Source: an uncultured Luminiphilus sp. (GTDB lineage Bacteria > Pseudomonadota > Gammaproteobacteria > Pseudomonadales > Halieaceae). Taken from it: a stretch of 64,000 bases of DNA. Below, piece by piece: positions 13,227-20,181 of this stretch (its first letter is position 1; each line of letters opens with the position of its first letter). Location: positions 62,001 to 126,000 of the forward strand of contig CALSUB010000001.1 of the NCBI GenBank assembly GCA_943789425.1, written 5' to 3'. The position numbers and the translations under genes are program-made. Below the pieces are notes generated by a model. It searched no databases, was not told the DNA's origin, and saw only the letters and a list, made by a program, of their open reading frames with translations.

Positions 13227-14159
13227 TCAGGTATGTGCCAGCAGCTCGTGGATGACCCCTTCGCGCAAAGCGCTCGCTGACGTGTTCATCGATTCGAGGC
13301 GCAGTCCGTCAAAAATACCCTGGGTAATGGCTAAGCCCGCTGTGACGACCGCTTTACGGTGTGCGCTCAGTCCCGCCAAATCGATATCGCCTACGCGATG
13401 GAAGCTCAGTAATTTCTGTCGGAGCGCGCTCAGTGATGCTTGGTCGATGCCCGATGGGCGCCAGCCAGCAGCGACAATGATTCGCTCTAGGGCGATGAGC
13501 GTTCCCGACGCGCCAATTGTCTCTTGCCAGGGGGCATGGCTGAAGCTTGGATAGAGCGCTGAGACCGCATGGCTTGCTTGTTGGCGCGCTGCATCGAACC
13601 GAGCCGCCGTGATGTCTCCGCCTGAAAAAAAGGCTTCACCATAGGATACGCAACCGAGGGGAAGGCTTTCTAAACGAAGTGGCTTTGCTTCGCAGCCTAA
13701 GATGAACTCGGTGCTGCCTCCGCCCACATCGATCACTAAATGAGGCGTTTGGTTATCGGAAAGGGTTTGCGCGACGCCAGTGTAGATGAGCCTCGCCTCT
13801 TCTTCGCCCTGCAGTATCTCAATCGGTGTGCCAAGCAGCGCCTCGGCTGGGGTAATAAAGTCACTTCGGTTCTTCGCTCGTCGTAATGCATGGGTGCCGA
13901 CCACTCGGATAGCGCAGGGACCGGTCTCATCAAGTAGTTGTTTGAATTGTTTTAGGCAGGCCAGCCCGCGACCAATCGCCGCCGGTGTTAGTGCTCCCGA
14001 ATCGGTTTCCTCGCCCAGTTGCACCCTTTCTGACAGAGTGTGAATCGGGCCTATTTGATCGTGATCGACCCGCGTGATGTTGAGGTGAAACGAGTTGCTG
14101 CCTAAGTCGACGGCAGCCAGGCAGAAGGCTTGCGGAGAGCGCGGCGAGGTTTCAGTCAC
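13227..14159 (-). CDS. Ppx/GppA family phosphatase
   Basis: An exopolyphosphatase or guanosine pentaphosphate phosphatase of the actin-like ATPase superfamily. At 310 residues it contains only the two core domains and lacks the C-terminal HD-like extension of E. coli Ppx and GppA. Visible motifs are VDLGSNSFHL near the start, the LQGEEEARLIYTGV loop with catalytic Glu, and the phosphate-binding VIDVGGGSTEF. It starts with GTG at 14159 without an obvious ribosome-binding site. Short forms cannot be assigned to Ppx or GppA by sequence reading alone. It converges on the ammonium transporter gene with an 18-base gap. Confidence 0.88.
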   Translation of the reverse strand: MTETSPRSPQAFCLAAVDLGSNSFHLNITRVDHDQIGPIHTLSERVQLGEETDSGALTPAAIGRGLACLKQFKQLLDETGPCAIRVVGTHALRRAKNRSDFITPAEALLGTPIEILQGEEEARLIYTGVAQTLSDNQTPHLVIDVGGGSTEFILGCEAKPLRLESLPLGCVSYGEAFFSGGDITAARFDAARQQASHAVSALYPSFSHAPWQETIGASGTLIALERIIVAAGWRPSGIDQASLSALRQKLLSFHRVGDIDLAGLSAHRKAVVTAGLAITQGIFDGLRLESMNTSASALREGVIHELLAHT

Positions 14160-14243: not shown

Positions 14244-15311
14244 CTATGGGTGATAACACCGAGGTACCCGACTGGTCACACGAGTCATTAACTCGTAGCC
14301 AATGGTATTGCAATGTTGCGCGACCTCATCAACGCTGGGTTGAGAGCCCCATAGCACCGCGGGCGCGCCGACTTCGATGTGCGCGCAGTCGGTCACATCG
14401 ACTGTCACCATGTCCATTGAGACTCGACCCGCCAGTGGGGCAATGTGATCGGCGATACCGATCGGTGCGCCGTCACGGGCAGCCCAGGGGTAGCCGTCGG
14501 CGTAGCCGACTGGCAAGGTGGCGATGCGACTGTCGCGCTGTGCCACCCAGCGTCCACCATACCCAACTGACTCGCCACGTTTGACATCCCGAAGCGTGAG
14601 CACCGAGGTCGCAAAGCGCATGGCGGGTTGCAGAGTCTCGTCGTTTGGAAGTCCGTTTATTTGCCCTCCATACAGGGCGTAGCCCAGTCTTGCCCAGTCA
14701 CTGGCGCCCATTGAACGCGTGCGAGCGGCAGCCGAATTATGGAGACTGACAGCCCCTTGCCAGTCCTTTAGTTGCTCCTGCCAGGCCGCCAGCTGAAAGT
14801 TTGTCAGCTCCGCATCAGGATGCTCCGCTATAGCAAGGTGCGACATGAGCGTAATGTCGTTGATTCCTGCCGCGTGTAGAGCACTGAGTGCCTCGGGGAG
14901 CGCGTCTGAAGAGAAACCGAGCCGGTGCATACCCGTATCCAGTTTCAACCACGCTGCTGACAGGAGGGAGGCATGCTGTCCACACCAGGTCAGCTGTTCG
15001 CTATGGTGTAGCGTTGGCCACAGCGCCATTTCTGCCATCAAGCCGATTTCATCCTCTGACTGCGGCCCCTCTAATACCAAGATAGGTGCGGTGACACCCG
15101 CTTTGCGCAAAATAATCGCCTCTTCTGTCATTGCGACAGCCAGGGCGTCGACCTGAGCTTCGATATGTTTTGCTACGTGAACGGCGCCGTGTCCGTAGGC
15201 ATCGGCTTTGACGACTGCCATAAGTTTTTGCGCGCCAATACGCGTTCTCAACGTCACTACGTTCGCGCTGATCGCGCTTAGATCAATATGGAGTGTTGTC
15301 GCCCGCGCCAT
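14244..15311 (-). CDS. alr: Alanine racemase
   Basis: A PLP enzyme interconverting L- and D-alanine, 355 residues and so of normal family size. The PLP-binding lysine is Lys35 in VVKADAYGHG. The C-terminal domain contains GYGGRW, LPVGYADGYPW and RVSMDMVTVDVTD, which hold the second active-site residues. It is the last gene of a seven-gene operon, 2 bases after the transaminase gene. Beside a D-amino-acid transaminase it can turn over D-alanine made or consumed in D-glutamate transamination. Whether another alr serves cell-wall synthesis elsewhere cannot be seen here. Confidence 0.95.
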   Translation of the reverse strand: MARATTLHIDLSAISANVVTLRTRIGAQKLMAVVKADAYGHGAVHVAKHIEAQVDALAVAMTEEAIILRKAGVTAPILVLEGPQSEDEIGLMAEMALWPTLHHSEQLTWCGQHASLLSAAWLKLDTGMHRLGFSSDALPEALSALHAAGINDITLMSHLAIAEHPDAELTNFQLAAWQEQLKDWQGAVSLHNSAAARTRSMGASDWARLGYALYGGQINGLPNDETLQPAMRFATSVLTLRDVKRGESVGYGGRWVAQRDSRIATLPVGYADGYPWAARDGAPIGIADHIAPLAGRVSMDMVTVDVTDCAHIEVGAPAVLWGSQPSVDEVAQHCNTIGYELMTRVTSRVPRCYHP

Positions 15312-15313
15312 AA

Positions 15314-16171
15314 TCAGCGGTCAAACCGATACAGGTGAAAGAGGCGCTGTGCCTCAGACCACAGTGGACCCGGCTGGCCAGACCCCACTGGCTGACCATC
15401 GATCTGAATCACTGGAGCCAGCTCCTTGGTCGACGAGCTGAGCCAGATCTCTTCGGCGCTGCGGACTTCCGCACGCGTGACAGGACGAATTTCGACGCTC
15501 CAGTTGGTGTGTGCCGCCAAGAGGTCAAGGCAGAGGCGACGCGTCACACCGGGTAAAATGTGATGATCGAGTGCTGGCGTGAGTATTTTACCAGCGTCGA
15601 CAATAAACACGTTACAGGCTGCCGCTTCAGTAAGCTCGTCTCGTTCGTTGAACAACAGGACTTCCTGAGCTCCGTCATCAACGGCCTCCATCATATGCAG
15701 CACGTTACCCAGTAGCGCAGTCGACTTAATATCACAGCGCGACCATCGCTTATCGGTTCGGGTTACCGCAGTAAAGCATGTTGCAGTGGCAGGTGAGCCG
15801 TCTGATGGTGACGCGATCGTAAAAGGGTAGGCAAATAGGGTTGGGGTACTCTCTGCGGAAAAGGCATGCTGTCGCTTTTCTACGACCCCTCGAGTGATTT
15901 GAAGATACACCCCGTGATCACCGCTACCATTTTGTCGGCACAGTTCGTCAAGCAAGGCGACCAGTTGCTCGTTGGACTGGTTGATGGCCAGATCAATGCC
16001 CTCAAGGGAGTTTCTTAATCGCTCCAGATGATAATCCAGCGCCACAAACTGGCCTTGATAACTGGGAATGACTTCATAGACGCCATCGCCGAATAAGAAG
16101 CCTCTGTCCATCGGCGAGATGCGCGCCTCGGTCAGTGGAATAAAGTCGCCGTTGAGGTAAGCAATGGTCAT
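15314..16171 (-). CDS. dat: D-amino-acid transaminase (class IV)
   Basis: A fold-type IV PLP aminotransferase, most like D-alanine aminotransferase, which exchanges D-Ala and 2-oxoglutarate for pyruvate and D-Glu. The 285-residue protein has the family start AYLNGDFIPL and MDRGFLFGDGVYEVI. Lys149 in CDIKSTALLGN is the PLP lysine, and Glu182 in LTEAAACNVFIV is the cofactor-contacting glutamate. The start overlaps the DUF4392 gene by 4 bases. Branched-chain aminotransferase and aminodeoxychorismate lyase are related alternatives, but the adjacent alanine racemase and D-glutamate cyclase genes favour the D-amino-acid role. Confidence 0.88.
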   Translation of the reverse strand: MTIAYLNGDFIPLTEARISPMDRGFLFGDGVYEVIPSYQGQFVALDYHLERLRNSLEGIDLAINQSNEQLVALLDELCRQNGSGDHGVYLQITRGVVEKRQHAFSAESTPTLFAYPFTIASPSDGSPATATCFTAVTRTDKRWSRCDIKSTALLGNVLHMMEAVDDGAQEVLLFNERDELTEAAACNVFIVDAGKILTPALDHHILPGVTRRLCLDLLAAHTNWSVEIRPVTRAEVRSAEEIWLSSSTKELAPVIQIDGQPVGSGQPGPLWSEAQRLFHLYRFDR

Positions 16172-17022
16172 GCCGCCGCCGTCCTAGTCAGAATGGTATT
16201 GGCTTCTGCCAGCAGGTGGGGGCCTGCGTTGGCCGGAAATCCGTCTTCGGTTGGGGTGGGCAGCCCTGTGACACCATCTACCGCGCCAACTGCAACGAGG
16301 TAGGCCAACGCCTGTTGAATATCGAGCGCTGGATCGTTCAGCTTGTTATCTAACCACTGAACAAGGGCACAGAGAGCATAGGCAGCCCAATTCGACACGT
16401 CTGCCACGATTAATTCATCACAATCGCTAATCGCCGCCCTGATATCGAGAGAGCGGAGGGCTGCTTGAGCTTTGCCCATGCCTAACTCGTTGCCGCCATC
16501 TCCTATCGCAATCGTAGGACAGGTGGCGAGCTCGAGGTAGGGCTCGGCCGAGCTGCAAGCCGCTGATATATCGTCACCTGCCATGTTGTAACAATGACCG
16601 TCCGCCGCGGTCCCTGGGCGTTCGATGCTGATCACTAGGTCAGGTGGGGCCTGCTGATAAAGCAAAGAGACCGCGTCAGCGATCTCGCCACGGGTACCGG
16701 TAGCGAGTTCAGTACACAGGAAGTCTGTCGATAAAGCATGGGCGATGGGTCGGTCGGATAGGATCGTCGGCTGAGCGCCGCGTTGCCGTAAAAGCTGGTA
16801 TAACGCCATTGCGCCAGCGGGTCCGTCGGTCTCAAATGTGCCGGCTACTGGGAACCCCGTTAGGATATAAGCTCGCCCCGTGCATCCGTGAATCATGTCC
16901 GCAGCGCGCAGCAAGTAGCCTGGTTCTAGCGTTGCTCGCACATCCCGCATGCCCCGGTGATTATGGGCCACCAAAAGTGTTTCAAGCGCTTCTGAAGCAG
17001 TGAGGGTGGCCTGGTCTCTCAT
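16168..17022 (-). CDS. D-glutamate cyclase C-terminal-type protein (DUF4392)
   Basis: The 284-residue product matches the DUF4392 domain, which in mammals forms the C-terminal half of mitochondrial D-glutamate cyclase (DGLUCY). That enzyme converts D-glutamate to 5-oxo-D-proline. Conserved-looking segments are YILTGFPVAGTFETDGPAGA near residue 55, DLVISIERPGTAADG with the acidic cluster near 130, and AIGDGGNELGMGK near 172. It overlaps pxpC upstream and dat downstream by 4 bases each. The partner DUF1445 half is a separate gene at the head of the same operon (19381-20181). The domain assignment is good; the activity is inferred from the mammalian fusion and the neighbours. Confidence 0.82.
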   Translation of the reverse strand: MRDQATLTASEALETLLVAHNHRGMRDVRATLEPGYLLRAADMIHGCTGRAYILTGFPVAGTFETDGPAGAMALYQLLRQRGAQPTILSDRPIAHALSTDFLCTELATGTRGEIADAVSLLYQQAPPDLVISIERPGTAADGHCYNMAGDDISAACSSAEPYLELATCPTIAIGDGGNELGMGKAQAALRSLDIRAAISDCDELIVADVSNWAAYALCALVQWLDNKLNDPALDIQQALAYLVAVGAVDGVTGLPTPTEDGFPANAGPHLLAEANTILTRTAAA

Positions 17023-17951
17023 CGCAGTCGCGTCTCAACATAATGATGTTCTAGCCACCTGATGTTGTCGGCTTCCTGCGGAGTGCAAGCGGCGAAACGA
17101 ATTGTCTGTCCTGGCCGTGCTTGAGCAAGGCGCACACAGTCGCTTTCAATGACGGCGCCGGGAATGGGATAGCCACCCATTGTTTGTCGATCTTTCATGA
17201 GGACGATAGGGTTTCCGTCGGGTGGAATTTGAATGGCGCCCTGGCAGGTTGCCTCTGACAGTAGCGACTCTACACCGGTCTTCAACGGAGGGCCATTGAG
17301 GGTAATCCCCATTCGATTGGCCTTCGAAGTAACCTCAAAGTGGTCCTCGTTGAGCCTTTGAATGAGCGCAGGGGCAAGCTCATCGTATTGGTAGCCCGGT
17401 ACGTAGCGAAGGGTCAAAACGGCTCTTTGTTCGATGCTGCACAGACCTGGGTCCGCGCCGTAAGTGTCGATGGGTGGTGCGCCGTCGCCCAGAGGGACCG
17501 TGTCTTGATCCCGAAGGTAACCGCCATGTAATCCGCCGATGCCCTCTCTCGGAGCGGTACTTCGACTGTTAAAAATGGGTTGAGTATCAAAGCCTCCTGA
17601 GACGTGGAGGTAACTATAGATGCCCTCTGAGGGCGGGCCGATGGTCAGTGTCTGACCGGCGCTGAGTGTCTGTATGGACCTCATAGGCACAGACTCGTTA
17701 TCAATCAATAGCATCGCTGGTGCGCCCGTGACCACCAGGGCGCAGTCGTGGGACGGCGTTGCCCTGACATTGCCATAAGCGATCTCGATAGCCGCCTCTC
17801 CAGCATGATGTCCGAGGCAATGCTGTCCAGCCTTTAATGCGAGGGGATCCATAGCGCCTGCGGCGGCAATGCCGGCGTGCAGGGTGCCGAGCCGACCACC
17901 GTCTTGTATGGTGGAGGCGATGCCTGCTTTGTCGAGGGTCAACGTTCTCAC
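17019..17951 (-). CDS. pxpC: 5-oxoprolinase subunit C (biotin-dependent carboxyltransferase family)
   Basis: Subunit of the ATP-dependent 5-oxoprolinase PxpABC, which opens 5-oxoproline to glutamate in the cytoplasm. The 310-residue protein has the AHS2 signatures STIQDGGRLG and AGAMDPLALKAGQ at its start, VTGAPAMLL, YLHVSGGFD, and RMGITLNGPPL with the GAIQIPPDGNP loop. AHS1 and AHS2 are also found fused in allophanate and urea carboxylases, but here the three separate pxp genes in order identify the oxoprolinase. It overlaps pxpB and the DUF4392 gene by 4 bases each, which points to coupled translation. Confidence 0.92.
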   Translation of the reverse strand: MRTLTLDKAGIASTIQDGGRLGTLHAGIAAAGAMDPLALKAGQHCLGHHAGEAAIEIAYGNVRATPSHDCALVVTGAPAMLLIDNESVPMRSIQTLSAGQTLTIGPPSEGIYSYLHVSGGFDTQPIFNSRSTAPREGIGGLHGGYLRDQDTVPLGDGAPPIDTYGADPGLCSIEQRAVLTLRYVPGYQYDELAPALIQRLNEDHFEVTSKANRMGITLNGPPLKTGVESLLSEATCQGAIQIPPDGNPIVLMKDRQTMGGYPIPGAVIESDCVRLAQARPGQTIRFAACTPQEADNIRWLEHHYVETRLR

Positions 17952-18643
17952 AGTTGCCCCCCAAGTGAGCGGTAGGTTTGCTCATCAATGGCCTCAAAGC
18001 GCACTGAATCCCCCACAGCCAGCGTGCTAACGGGCGTCGCGGCAAGGTCAAAAAGTGTGACCGGGCACGCGCCAATGATTCGCCACCCACCGGGCGACTC
18101 ACAGGGATAAACGGCCGTTTGTTGATCTGCGATGGCGACCGCGCCGGCGGGTACACGCTGTCGAGGCGTGCTCAGTCGCGGCGTTTTTAGGCGCGGATCC
18201 AGTGTGCCGAGGTAGCAAAATCCGGGGGCAAATCCAGTCGCGTAGGCGAAGTAAGGCGTTGCGCTGTGCAAGGTGGTCAGTGCGTCAACTGTCATGCCAA
18301 GGTCGTCGGCTAAAGTCACCAAGTCGGGCGCTACGGCTGGATCATAAAAAACCGGGAGCACCACGGTCTCTTTGCTGTCCGCAGCGTGGGTCTCTTGCGC
18401 GTCGCTCAGCGAGCGGGCTGTTTTTTCCAGCCAGGCAGTTACCTGGTCACGTTGCAAACTGAGTGGGGTAAAAAATAGTGTGAGGGTGGCATAGCCCACG
18501 ACGCTGTCACTGAGTGCGTTTAAAAAATAATCCTGCGCAGTGCGCTGCAGCTGCAGCAACAGTCGAGTCAGACGGGGGCTAGGCGGTTCCTGAAAACTCA
18601 GGCGCATCGCCGTGTCGCCGGCTGGTCCGATGGTAAATGACAT
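17948..18643 (-). CDS. pxpB: 5-oxoprolinase subunit B
   Basis: Kinase-like AHS1 subunit of 5-oxoprolinase, thought to phosphorylate 5-oxoproline with ATP. The 231-residue protein shows GDTAMRLSF at its start, the PVFYDPAVAPDL strand, YFAYATGFAPGFCYLG, and the characteristic KTPRLSTPRQRVPAGAV followed by YPCESPGGWRIIG. The gene starts directly after pxpA with no gap (18643/18644) and overlaps pxpC by 4 bases. Homologues in Bacillus were named KipI because they inhibit the sporulation kinase, but the operon context here supports the metabolic role. Confidence 0.93.
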   Translation of the reverse strand: MSFTIGPAGDTAMRLSFQEPPSPRLTRLLLQLQRTAQDYFLNALSDSVVGYATLTLFFTPLSLQRDQVTAWLEKTARSLSDAQETHAADSKETVVLPVFYDPAVAPDLVTLADDLGMTVDALTTLHSATPYFAYATGFAPGFCYLGTLDPRLKTPRLSTPRQRVPAGAVAIADQQTAVYPCESPGGWRIIGACPVTLFDLAATPVSTLAVGDSVRFEAIDEQTYRSLGGQL

Positions 18644-19384
18644 TTACGAGTGATCCAGGGCCTGTCGAATGGCGCGGATCATCTTCACTGCGCCCGGTGA
18701 ATCACTGTGAACGCACAACGTATCGGCACTAACGGGTATGCGTTTTCCCTTAGATGTTTTTAGTTTGTTGTGGGTGATGGCGATCGCTTGTTGCGCCGCC
18801 TCCTCAGGTGTCAGCACGGCACCGGGCTTGTCTCGGCTCAGAAGGAGCCCTCGGGTCGTGTAGCCACGGTCAGCAAACGCCTCATAACGCAAGTTGAGGC
18901 CGTGTTCTACGGCGAGCTGGACCGTTTTACGATCTCTCGGGGTGGCGAGGACCACGAGCTCTAAGCTGGCATGCCAACTAGCGGCCGCGCGCATGATGTC
19001 ATTCATGAGACTGGGGTCAGCGAGTATGGCGTGATACAGCGCACCATGGGCCTTGATGTAGGTAACGCGGCGACCGTGGGCGCGTGCAATACCGTCCAGT
19101 GCGCCCACTTGATAGTGAATCAAATCCACGAGTGCTTGCCCGCGGATATCCATTGCTCTGCGCCCGAAACCTTCTTTATCGGGGTATGAGACATGTGCGC
19201 CAATCTCGGTATCGTGCCTGCGCGCGAGCGCAACGCACTGACGCATTGTGCTGGGGTCACCCGCATGGCCGCCGCAGGCGATATTTGCCGCATCGATCAG
19301 GGGCATGATGCCTTCGTCATTACCCATCTTCCAGGGGCCAAAGCCTTCGCCCATATCGCAGTTTAATGTCAGCGGTTGGTTCAT
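18644..19384 (-). CDS. pxpA: 5-oxoprolinase subunit A (LamB/YcsF family)
   Basis: Subunit A of PxpABC, with a TIM-barrel-like fold, proposed to hydrolyse the phosphorylated 5-oxoproline. The 246-residue protein begins with the family hallmark LNCDMGEGFGPWKMGND, followed by ANIACGGHAGDP, IGAHVSYPD and YIKAHGALYH, with the metal and substrate residues Asp, Glu and His visible. Its ATG at 19384 overlaps the DUF1445 gene stop by 4 bases, so the whole run is probably one transcript. Known PxpA enzymes use the L form of 5-oxoproline; which enantiomer is used here cannot be told from sequence. Confidence 0.95.
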   Translation of the reverse strand: MNQPLTLNCDMGEGFGPWKMGNDEGIMPLIDAANIACGGHAGDPSTMRQCVALARRHDTEIGAHVSYPDKEGFGRRAMDIRGQALVDLIHYQVGALDGIARAHGRRVTYIKAHGALYHAILADPSLMNDIMRAAASWHASLELVVLATPRDRKTVQLAVEHGLNLRYEAFADRGYTTRGLLLSRDKPGAVLTPEEAAQQAIAITHNKLKTSKGKRIPVSADTLCVHSDSPGAVKMIRAIRQALDHS

Positions 19385-20181
19385 TGTGATATCGCCAAGT
19401 CGGTGTTTTTAAGATCGGTCACAAGCATGTGGCCGGGTTCGTGGGTGATCGCCATTGGCAATTTGGCCGCCTCAAGTGCCACCTGAGGCGTGACACCGCA
19501 GGCCCAAAATACCGGCATATCGGTGGGGTGCAGGGTGACGGGGTCGCCAAAATCAGGGTTGCCGAGATCATCAATGCCGAGGTGGCCAGGATCCCCGATA
19601 TGGATGGGCGCGCCATGAACGGACGGAAAGCGAGCACAAATTTGAATCGCTTCAATGGCGTCGGCCGCTGGCATGGGACGCATGCTGACCACCATATTGC
19701 CCGCGAAGGGGCCAGCTGGGGTACAGGGGATATTAGTGCGGTACATCGGGACGTTGACTCCCTCAATGATATTGCGAATGGCTATGCCTGCACCGATGAG
19801 TGCCTCCTCAAAAGAAAAGGAGCAGCCAAGCGCAAAAGCGACCCAGTCATCCTCCCAGACGTGCGTCACGTTGTCACATCGTTCGGTGAGCATGCCGTCT
19901 CGCCAGATTCGATACTGGGGGAGGTCAGTGCGTATATCGATGTCCTGTGCCAAAGCCTTCAGCGCGACCGAGCCGGGTGCCTCGCTCATTGCGAGCAGCG
20001 GGCAGGGGCGAGGATTGTGTTCGCAAAAGCCCAGAAAGTGATGCGCTGAATCGGCGGGCATCATCACGACGTTGCACTGGACGTACCCGGGCGCCCGCCC
20101 TGACGTCGGCTCGACGAAGTCCCCTGTGCGGCAGAGGCGCCTGATATCGAGGCCAGATTCGCTGTCGCAGGTCACTACCAT
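19381..20181 (-). CDS. DUF1445 putative hydro-lyase / D-glutamate cyclase N-terminal-type protein
   Basis: A 266-residue member of the DUF1445 family, annotated as putative hydro-lyase. The same domain is the N-terminal half of mammalian D-glutamate cyclase. Visible features are TSGRAPGYVQCNVVMMP near residue 26, FALGCSFSFEEAL with its cysteine, PMYRTNIPC, the FAGNMVVSMRPM loop, and the C-terminal FWACGVTPQVAL and ITHEPGHMLVTD. It is the first gene of the seven-gene operon and is divergent from an acyl-CoA ligase gene. ATG at 20181 has GGAG immediately before it with no spacing; GTG at 20175 is 6 bases past that site and may be the true start. Confidence 0.85.
   Translation of the reverse strand: MVVTCDSESGLDIRRLCRTGDFVEPTSGRAPGYVQCNVVMMPADSAHHFLGFCEHNPRPCPLLAMSEAPGSVALKALAQDIDIRTDLPQYRIWRDGMLTERCDNVTHVWEDDWVAFALGCSFSFEEALIGAGIAIRNIIEGVNVPMYRTNIPCTPAGPFAGNMVVSMRPMPAADAIEAIQICARFPSVHGAPIHIGDPGHLGIDDLGNPDFGDPVTLHPTDMPVFWACGVTPQVALEAAKLPMAITHEPGHMLVTDLKNTDLAISQ

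Follow-up and report, generated by a model that had tools for sequence, protein, structure and literature searches.

A seven-gene operon in Luminiphilus joins separate homologues of the two D-glutamate cyclase halves to PxpABC, a Dat-like aminotransferase and alanine racemase

Seven adjoining genes on one strand

The window analysed here is a 64,000-nucleotide stretch of contig CALSUB010000001.1 (positions 62,001 to 126,000) from an uncultured Luminiphilus sp. of the Halieaceae, whose assembled genome measures 1.7 Mb and is 80% complete. Within the window, seven genes form a single minus-strand row from 20181 to 14244, in the order DUF1445, pxpA, pxpB, pxpC, DUF4392, dat and alr (Table 1). Four of the junctions are overlaps of 4 bases, the gap between pxpA and pxpB is 0 and that between dat and alr is 2, so that the coordinates agree exactly with the layout given in an earlier note made from the sequence alone. 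The gene identities proposed in that note are likewise backed by Pfam matches, which lie far over the cut-off for all seven proteins. Among the curated NCBIfam models, those for DUF1445, PxpA and Alr are exceeded, while PxpB (TIGR00370, 134.6 vs 145.55) and PxpC (NF045499, 206.3 vs 500) score under their equivalog thresholds, as Dat does under its own cut-offs, and the DUF4392 protein has no match in NCBIfam. Solved relatives were found for DUF1445 (3db9 and 2pif), for DUF4392 and for PxpA (including E. coli YbgL, 1xw8). Translation of DUF1445 may begin at an in-frame GTG at 20175 rather than at the ATG at 20181, as a GGAG is better spaced for the former. The row contains no transporter or regulator gene, and promoter and terminator scans returned signals no more than in shuffles.

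Table 1. Genes of the seven-gene row in the window, in order of transcription, with bit scores and curated cut-offs where given
Feature	Position	Strand	Evidence
DUF1445 (PF07286), homologue of the N-terminal half of mammalian D-glutamate cyclase	19381..20181	-	PF07286 220.8 bits, cut-off 25; NF003969 391.9, cut-off 324
PxpA, LamB/YcsF-type 5-oxoprolinase subunit	18644..19384	-	PF03746 294.8 bits; NF003816 301, cut-off 213
PxpB, divergent 5-oxoprolinase subunit	17948..18643	-	PF02682 205.7 bits; 35% identity to E. coli PxpB
PxpC, divergent 5-oxoprolinase subunit	17019..17951	-	PF02626 250.7 bits; 37% identity to E. coli PxpC
DUF4392 (PF14336), homologue of the C-terminal half of mammalian D-glutamate cyclase	16168..17022	-	PF14336 206.6 bits, cut-off 27.9
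Dat-like class IV aminotransferase	15314..16171	-	PF01063
Alr, alanine racemase	14244..15311	-	PF01168 + PF00842; TIGR00492 304.5 bits, cut-off 168

Homologues of both mammalian cyclase halves are encoded separately

The PF07286 and PF14336 domains are both encoded in the window, on separate genes that flank pxpABC and not on a single chain; the earlier note had described them as fused in the mammalian protein and here split, with pxpABC between, and this description holds. The mouse protein 9030617O03Rik, which has both domains, converts D-glutamate (D-Glu) to 5-oxo-D-proline (PMC5339696). A DUF4392 domain also occurs alone in TON_0340, a Mn2+-dependent phosphatase that requires its metal site and for which six acidic metal ligands are named (PMC5132392). 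Alignment to TON_0340 places the corresponding residues of the window protein at E64, D66, E134, D175, E179 and D260; these positions were rechecked, and all six ligands are invariant across 14 sequences. When 14 control genomes were searched, PF07286 matched in B. subtilis and PF14336 in none.

Conservation of the operon within Luminiphilus

DUF1445 is present in 35 of 57 Luminiphilus genomes, and all 35 carry the gene block, with DUF4392 alongside DUF1445. Two loci with DUF4392 proteins 96% and 94% identical to that of the window lie in genomes of this genus, to which strain HTCC2080 likewise belongs. The complete seven-gene run, in the same order and on the same strand, was found in 32 of the 35 (the window plus 31 of 34 fetched loci), and in the remaining three (G189, G197 and G259) it is interrupted by contig ends. 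PF14336 itself was searched in 37 genomes of the genus and gave 22 matches. A further 16 genomes carry a different pxpABC (pxpA 34-42% identical), near which the other four operon genes are absent from the stretch examined, short in some genomes. Six of the 57 genomes have no pxpC match, all of them <90% complete; among those >=90% complete, pxpC occurs in 17/17 and DUF1445 in 8/17. Both pxpC types together were seen in 0/57.

Because the order recurs in 35 Luminiphilus genomes and in 20 of 57 further loci described below, the seven-gene arrangement is beyond chance. The earlier note had named a lack of conservation of the block in relatives among the outcomes that would refute its proposal, and these counts bear the conservation out.

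One of the 32 complete runs, in G195 (L049:6228-14729), has many operon genes split by frameshifts. Flanking genes are also split, and this therefore looks like assembly error more than decay. Beyond the row itself, a Ppx/GppA phosphatase gene (ppx) lies at 13227-14159 of the window, 84 bases past alr on the same strand, and a relative of it follows alr in 30 of the 34 fetched Luminiphilus operon loci. The gene upstream of DUF1445 is divergently oriented.

Distribution outside Luminiphilus

A scan of genome contigs with DUF4392 found at least 531 relatives, and the top 80 by similarity to the query were used; 23 of these belong to Luminiphilus genomes of the set, and the other 57 are treated as outside loci. 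This choice biases the 80 towards loci of the operon type. Among the outside loci, 20 hold the complete seven, 14 the first six without a downstream alr, and 13 only pxpABC-DUF4392-dat; two are without dat and eight are cut by contig ends. Counted gene by gene, with some misses attributable to contig ends, pxpC is present in 56, dat in 55, pxpA and pxpB in 53 each, DUF1445 in 38 and alr in 22. A more distant DUF1445 gene on the same strand was found in four outside loci.

At broader sampling the family becomes sparse. PF14336 matched in three of 21 genomes from other genera of the same order and in one of an even sample of 185 genomes of the class, this one being the window's own. Of the three, G229 keeps the full ordered row, G221 keeps it with dat separated from DUF4392 by a LysR gene, and G223 has only pxpA-DUF4392-dat-alr, with pxpC on another contig. 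DUF4392 is also matched in five Pseudoalteromonas plasmid records of 0.8-0.9 Mb. The three that were opened (L021:6532-11652, L022:4570-9667 and L025:4563-9661) read GH3-DUF1445-pxpA-DUF4392-aminotransferase, with no pxpBC in the stretch, so that PxpBC can be absent where other parts of the operon are present. No close relatives were found on viral contigs in the scan. That PF14336 might be tied to this operon in general was considered and rejected, as two rhizobial loci that were opened adjoin bhc genes or amino-acid ABC transporter genes. At L024:5387-8825 of Sinorhizobium sojae, two DUF4392-type genes stand ahead of an amino-acid ABC transporter, a different setting.

PxpABC of the operon type

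The PxpA, PxpB and PxpC families, encoded together in the window, constitute an ATP-dependent 5-oxoprolinase in C. glutamicum (PMC13274462) and in B. subtilis (PMC10448178). Trees were built from 25 chosen operon loci, nine operon-free Luminiphilus loci and E. coli. The 25 operon PxpC rows form a single branch (support 100/98) that excludes both E. coli PxpC and the operon-free Luminiphilus type, and operon PxpB likewise forms one branch with weaker support (89/76). For PxpA, the operon rows group together with the Pseudoalteromonas and G223 rows (29 rows, 96/93). The E. coli PxpA and PxpB sit on long branches, and their placement is unsure. On account of these branches, PxpABC of the operon type appears to be a separate lineage.

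Pairwise distances among six of the genes correlate at 0.80-0.94 (64 of 83 loci, 19 having been dropped for missing or short genes) and at 0.61-0.80 after 22 Luminiphilus loci are taken out (861 pairs, 42 loci; L064, another Luminiphilus locus, was retained, and DUF1445 genes standing away from the row were included). As they were run without a control gene, these correlations speak for co-inheritance only. In one of the 57 outside loci, from a metagenome-assembled genome (MAG) of the Porticoccaceae (L154:7038-8807), PxpC and DUF4392 share a single 590-residue frame in which both Pfam domains are complete. This may be a true fusion; it could also be a one-base assembly (indel) error, since in the window pxpC and DUF4392 overlap in different frames.

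Dat, Alr and the source of D-glutamate

The residues K149, R100 and H102 of Dat are in register with the solved D-amino-acid aminotransferase 4m0j. We take K149 to be the pyridoxal phosphate (PLP) lysine, and R100 and H102 to be the R-x-H carboxylate motif of D-amino-acid transaminases. Among 12 solved relatives the best nine are D-amino-acid or D-alanine aminotransferases, and the other three are branched-chain enzymes. The operon alr is the only alr match in the window's incomplete genome (G000). Across the 35 operon genomes alr was found in 33, one in each, and in 32 of these it lies on the operon (in G195 in three pieces). In the thirty-third, G189, it lies beside a piece of dat on a separate contig; no alr match was obtained in G197 and G259, both cut by contig ends. 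The pairing persists where the operon is missing, since a Dat-like gene adjoins alr in 14 of the 16 genomes with operon-free pxpABC, among the matches listed. The two exceptions are G192, where alr is cut by a contig end, and G250, which has no alr.

MurI (TIGR00067) was over cut-off in 0/57 Luminiphilus genomes, including 0/17 of the nearly complete ones, with nine weak matches; the same search was over cut-off in eight of 14 control genomes. The absence holds across the genus with or without the operon. The single alr on the operon, the genus-wide lack of a MurI match and the dat-alr pair of operon-free genomes are all new here. Besides MurI, D-amino-acid aminotransferases are a known source of D-Glu (PMC8788868), and with the D-Glu requirement assumed from the usual cell wall, Luminiphilus D-Glu is probably made by Alr and Dat, unless there is another route. 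Because alr is single and on the operon, MurI has no match, and the dat-alr pair is kept without the operon, Dat and Alr are probably a supply line for D-alanine (D-Ala) and D-Glu, not just a catabolic branch. For the same reasons, the purely catabolic or recycling module put forward in the earlier note is unsupported as stated.

The operon was also considered as a marker of MurI loss, and this was rejected as a general rule: MurI is over cut-off in 20 of 51 genomes with the whole or partial operon (G221, G223 and G229 plus those carrying 48 of the 57 outside loci). In the even class sample MurI is over cut-off in only 60 of 185 genomes, below expectation.

A tentative role in D-glutamate and 5-oxoproline homeostasis

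Gene content, order and conservation, an intact metal site, a single alr and the lack of a MurI match are what was observed. The reading tentatively favoured here, at a little short of an even chance, is that the seven genes form one operon for D-Glu and 5-oxoproline homeostasis. In a supply arm, Alr would convert L-alanine to D-Ala, and Dat would exchange the amino group between D-Ala and 2-oxoglutarate, providing D-Glu for peptidoglycan; in Luminiphilus, which gave no MurI match, this would probably be the chief D-Glu source. In a disposal arm, DUF1445 and DUF4392 would work as a pair, DUF4392 binding Mn2+ at its metal site, and would cyclise D-Glu that is in surplus or comes from the wall to 5-oxoproline, the reaction of the two-domain mammalian protein. 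A recycling arm would follow in which PxpABC, with ATP, returns 5-oxoproline to glutamate. We infer from sequence each of these reactions, its metal and its direction, as well as the union of the three arms in one pathway.

Several points weigh against this homeostatic role. With Dat making D-Glu and other products of the operon destroying it, the outcome could be futile cycling, and Dat alone could be sufficient to remove a surplus. Corynebacterium PxpABC is described for 5-oxo-L-proline (PMC13274462), and the mouse cyclase yields the D ring (PMC5339696). DUF1445 stands at the head of the row in 38 of the 57 outside loci, and in 15 there is none there despite the contig reaching that far. Dat is under its curated cut-offs (TIGR01121, 227.8 vs 277.45; NF005209, 240.3 vs 320), and TIGR01121 is over cut-off in 0/57 Luminiphilus genomes. 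The absence of MurI is not linked to the operon, given the presence of MurI in operon genomes and its scarcity in the class noted above, and D-Glu could come by another route such as MurL, although the MurL genera listed in the available passages of PMC8788868 include no Halieaceae. Finally, PF02538, of the hydantoinase-B/oxoprolinase family, matches in 40/57 Luminiphilus genomes, with no match in G000; PxpABC therefore need not be the sole 5-oxoprolinase, and a proposal that it is the only one of its genome was not upheld.

Unlikely on balance, but the most serious competitor to homeostasis, is a scavenging role in which PxpABC opens rings, the cyclase pair is ring-opening or acts on D-Glu, and Dat and Alr pass the nitrogen and carbon of D-Glu to 2-oxoglutarate and alanine. 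A scan of flanking genes, covering part of those genes in part of the loci, found a LysR-type regulator gene separating DUF4392 from dat in L106, L157, L096 and L027, and on the opposite strand in L147; TRAP transporter genes (DctP, DctM) upstream on the same strand in Marinomonas L117; and a GH3 gene first in the row in Pseudoalteromonas L021, L022 and L025. The GH3 of L021, the sole one scanned, is beta-N-acetylhexosaminidase-like, under cut-off (190.2 vs 207). These regulator, transporter and GH3 genes point to scavenging from outside, and poor nitrogen sources relieve repression of the Bacillus ycsFGI-kipIAR operon (PMC3412718). The window operon itself, however, holds no transporter or regulator gene, and in Luminiphilus the sole alr found is the operon's, which is awkward for a purely inducible catabolic operon. 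Homeostasis and scavenging may both be true, in different hosts.

The separate branch of operon-type PxpC, together with window PxpB and PxpC scores under the cut-offs of the known type and the fused L154 frame, would also fit a PxpABC that has turned into a 5-oxo-D-prolinase, with D-Glu and 5-oxo-D-proline interconverted by one enzyme set and no epimerisation. This appears improbable: the branch could be ordinary divergence, the frame is known from a single MAG and may reflect a one-base assembly error, and the lack of any Luminiphilus genome with both pxpC types fits a replacement of one type by the other in an unchanged role, on the L ring. A closed D-Glu loop, in which Dat and Alr replace MurI, the two-protein cyclase drains the surplus and a dedicated PxpABC branch reopens 5-oxo-D-proline directly, is distinctly improbable; literature searches found no description of a 5-oxo-D-prolinase among the matches listed. 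It is highly improbable that DUF4392 is instead a Mn2+-dependent phosphatase acting on a phosphorylated intermediate, with DUF1445 alone performing the ring chemistry and dat-alr adjacent merely through a shared glutamate/alanine theme. TON_0340 sets a precedent for such a phosphatase, DUF1445 accompanies pxpABC in Bacillus (PMC10448178, PMC3412718), PF07286 matches in B. subtilis among the 14 control genomes and PF14336 in none of them, and rhizobial DUF4392 genes occur in other settings. Yet the mammalian cyclase has both domains, the six ligands are retained, dat follows DUF4392 in 55/57 outside loci, and the physiological substrate of the TON_0340 phosphatase was unknown to its authors (PMC5132392).

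The operon suggests a MurI-free D-Glu supply in a marine bacterial genus. DUF1445 and DUF4392 are fused in animals, and the separate bacterial genes, conserved and coupled to 5-oxoprolinase, Dat and Alr, allow the role of each half to be tested one by one. The recurring block, predicted to make, remove and recycle a cell-wall building block, gives access to the bacterial use of D-Glu and its ring form.

Comparison with known systems

The three PxpABC families are those of Bacillus ycsF-kipI-kipA and E. coli pxpBCA, and in Bacillus they share one operon with ycsI, whose product we take to be DUF1445. The window differs from both in its divergent PxpB and PxpC and in the addition of DUF4392, dat and alr. 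No paper was recognised as describing this seven-gene operon among the matches listed, with subscription journals mostly outside the scope of the searches. The earlier note knew of no bacterial operon described in this way; the DUF1445-pxpABC link is already known in Bacillus ycsFGI-kipIAR (PMC3412718, PMC10448178). The Bacillus operon also has a Mn2+ importer gene, ycsG/mntG (PMC10448178), and the window operon is without one.

Mammalian mitochondrial D-glutamate cyclase (9030617O03Rik / C14orf159, DGLUCY) has the same DUF1445 and DUF4392 domains, and the DUF4392 metal ligands are retained in the window. Here, the two are separate proteins, their genes flanking pxpABC in an operon with dat and alr, and the bacterial activity is putative. 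The split state is shared with gut bacteria, for which six split and no full-length homologues of GLUCM_HUMAN are reported (PMC11580864); the available passages of that source give the count only and draw no link to PxpABC, Dat or Alr. The route through a D-amino-acid transaminase and alanine racemase is the same as the known alternative to MurI (PMC8788868), while in Luminiphilus it is joined in one operon to a putative pathway of D-Glu disposal.

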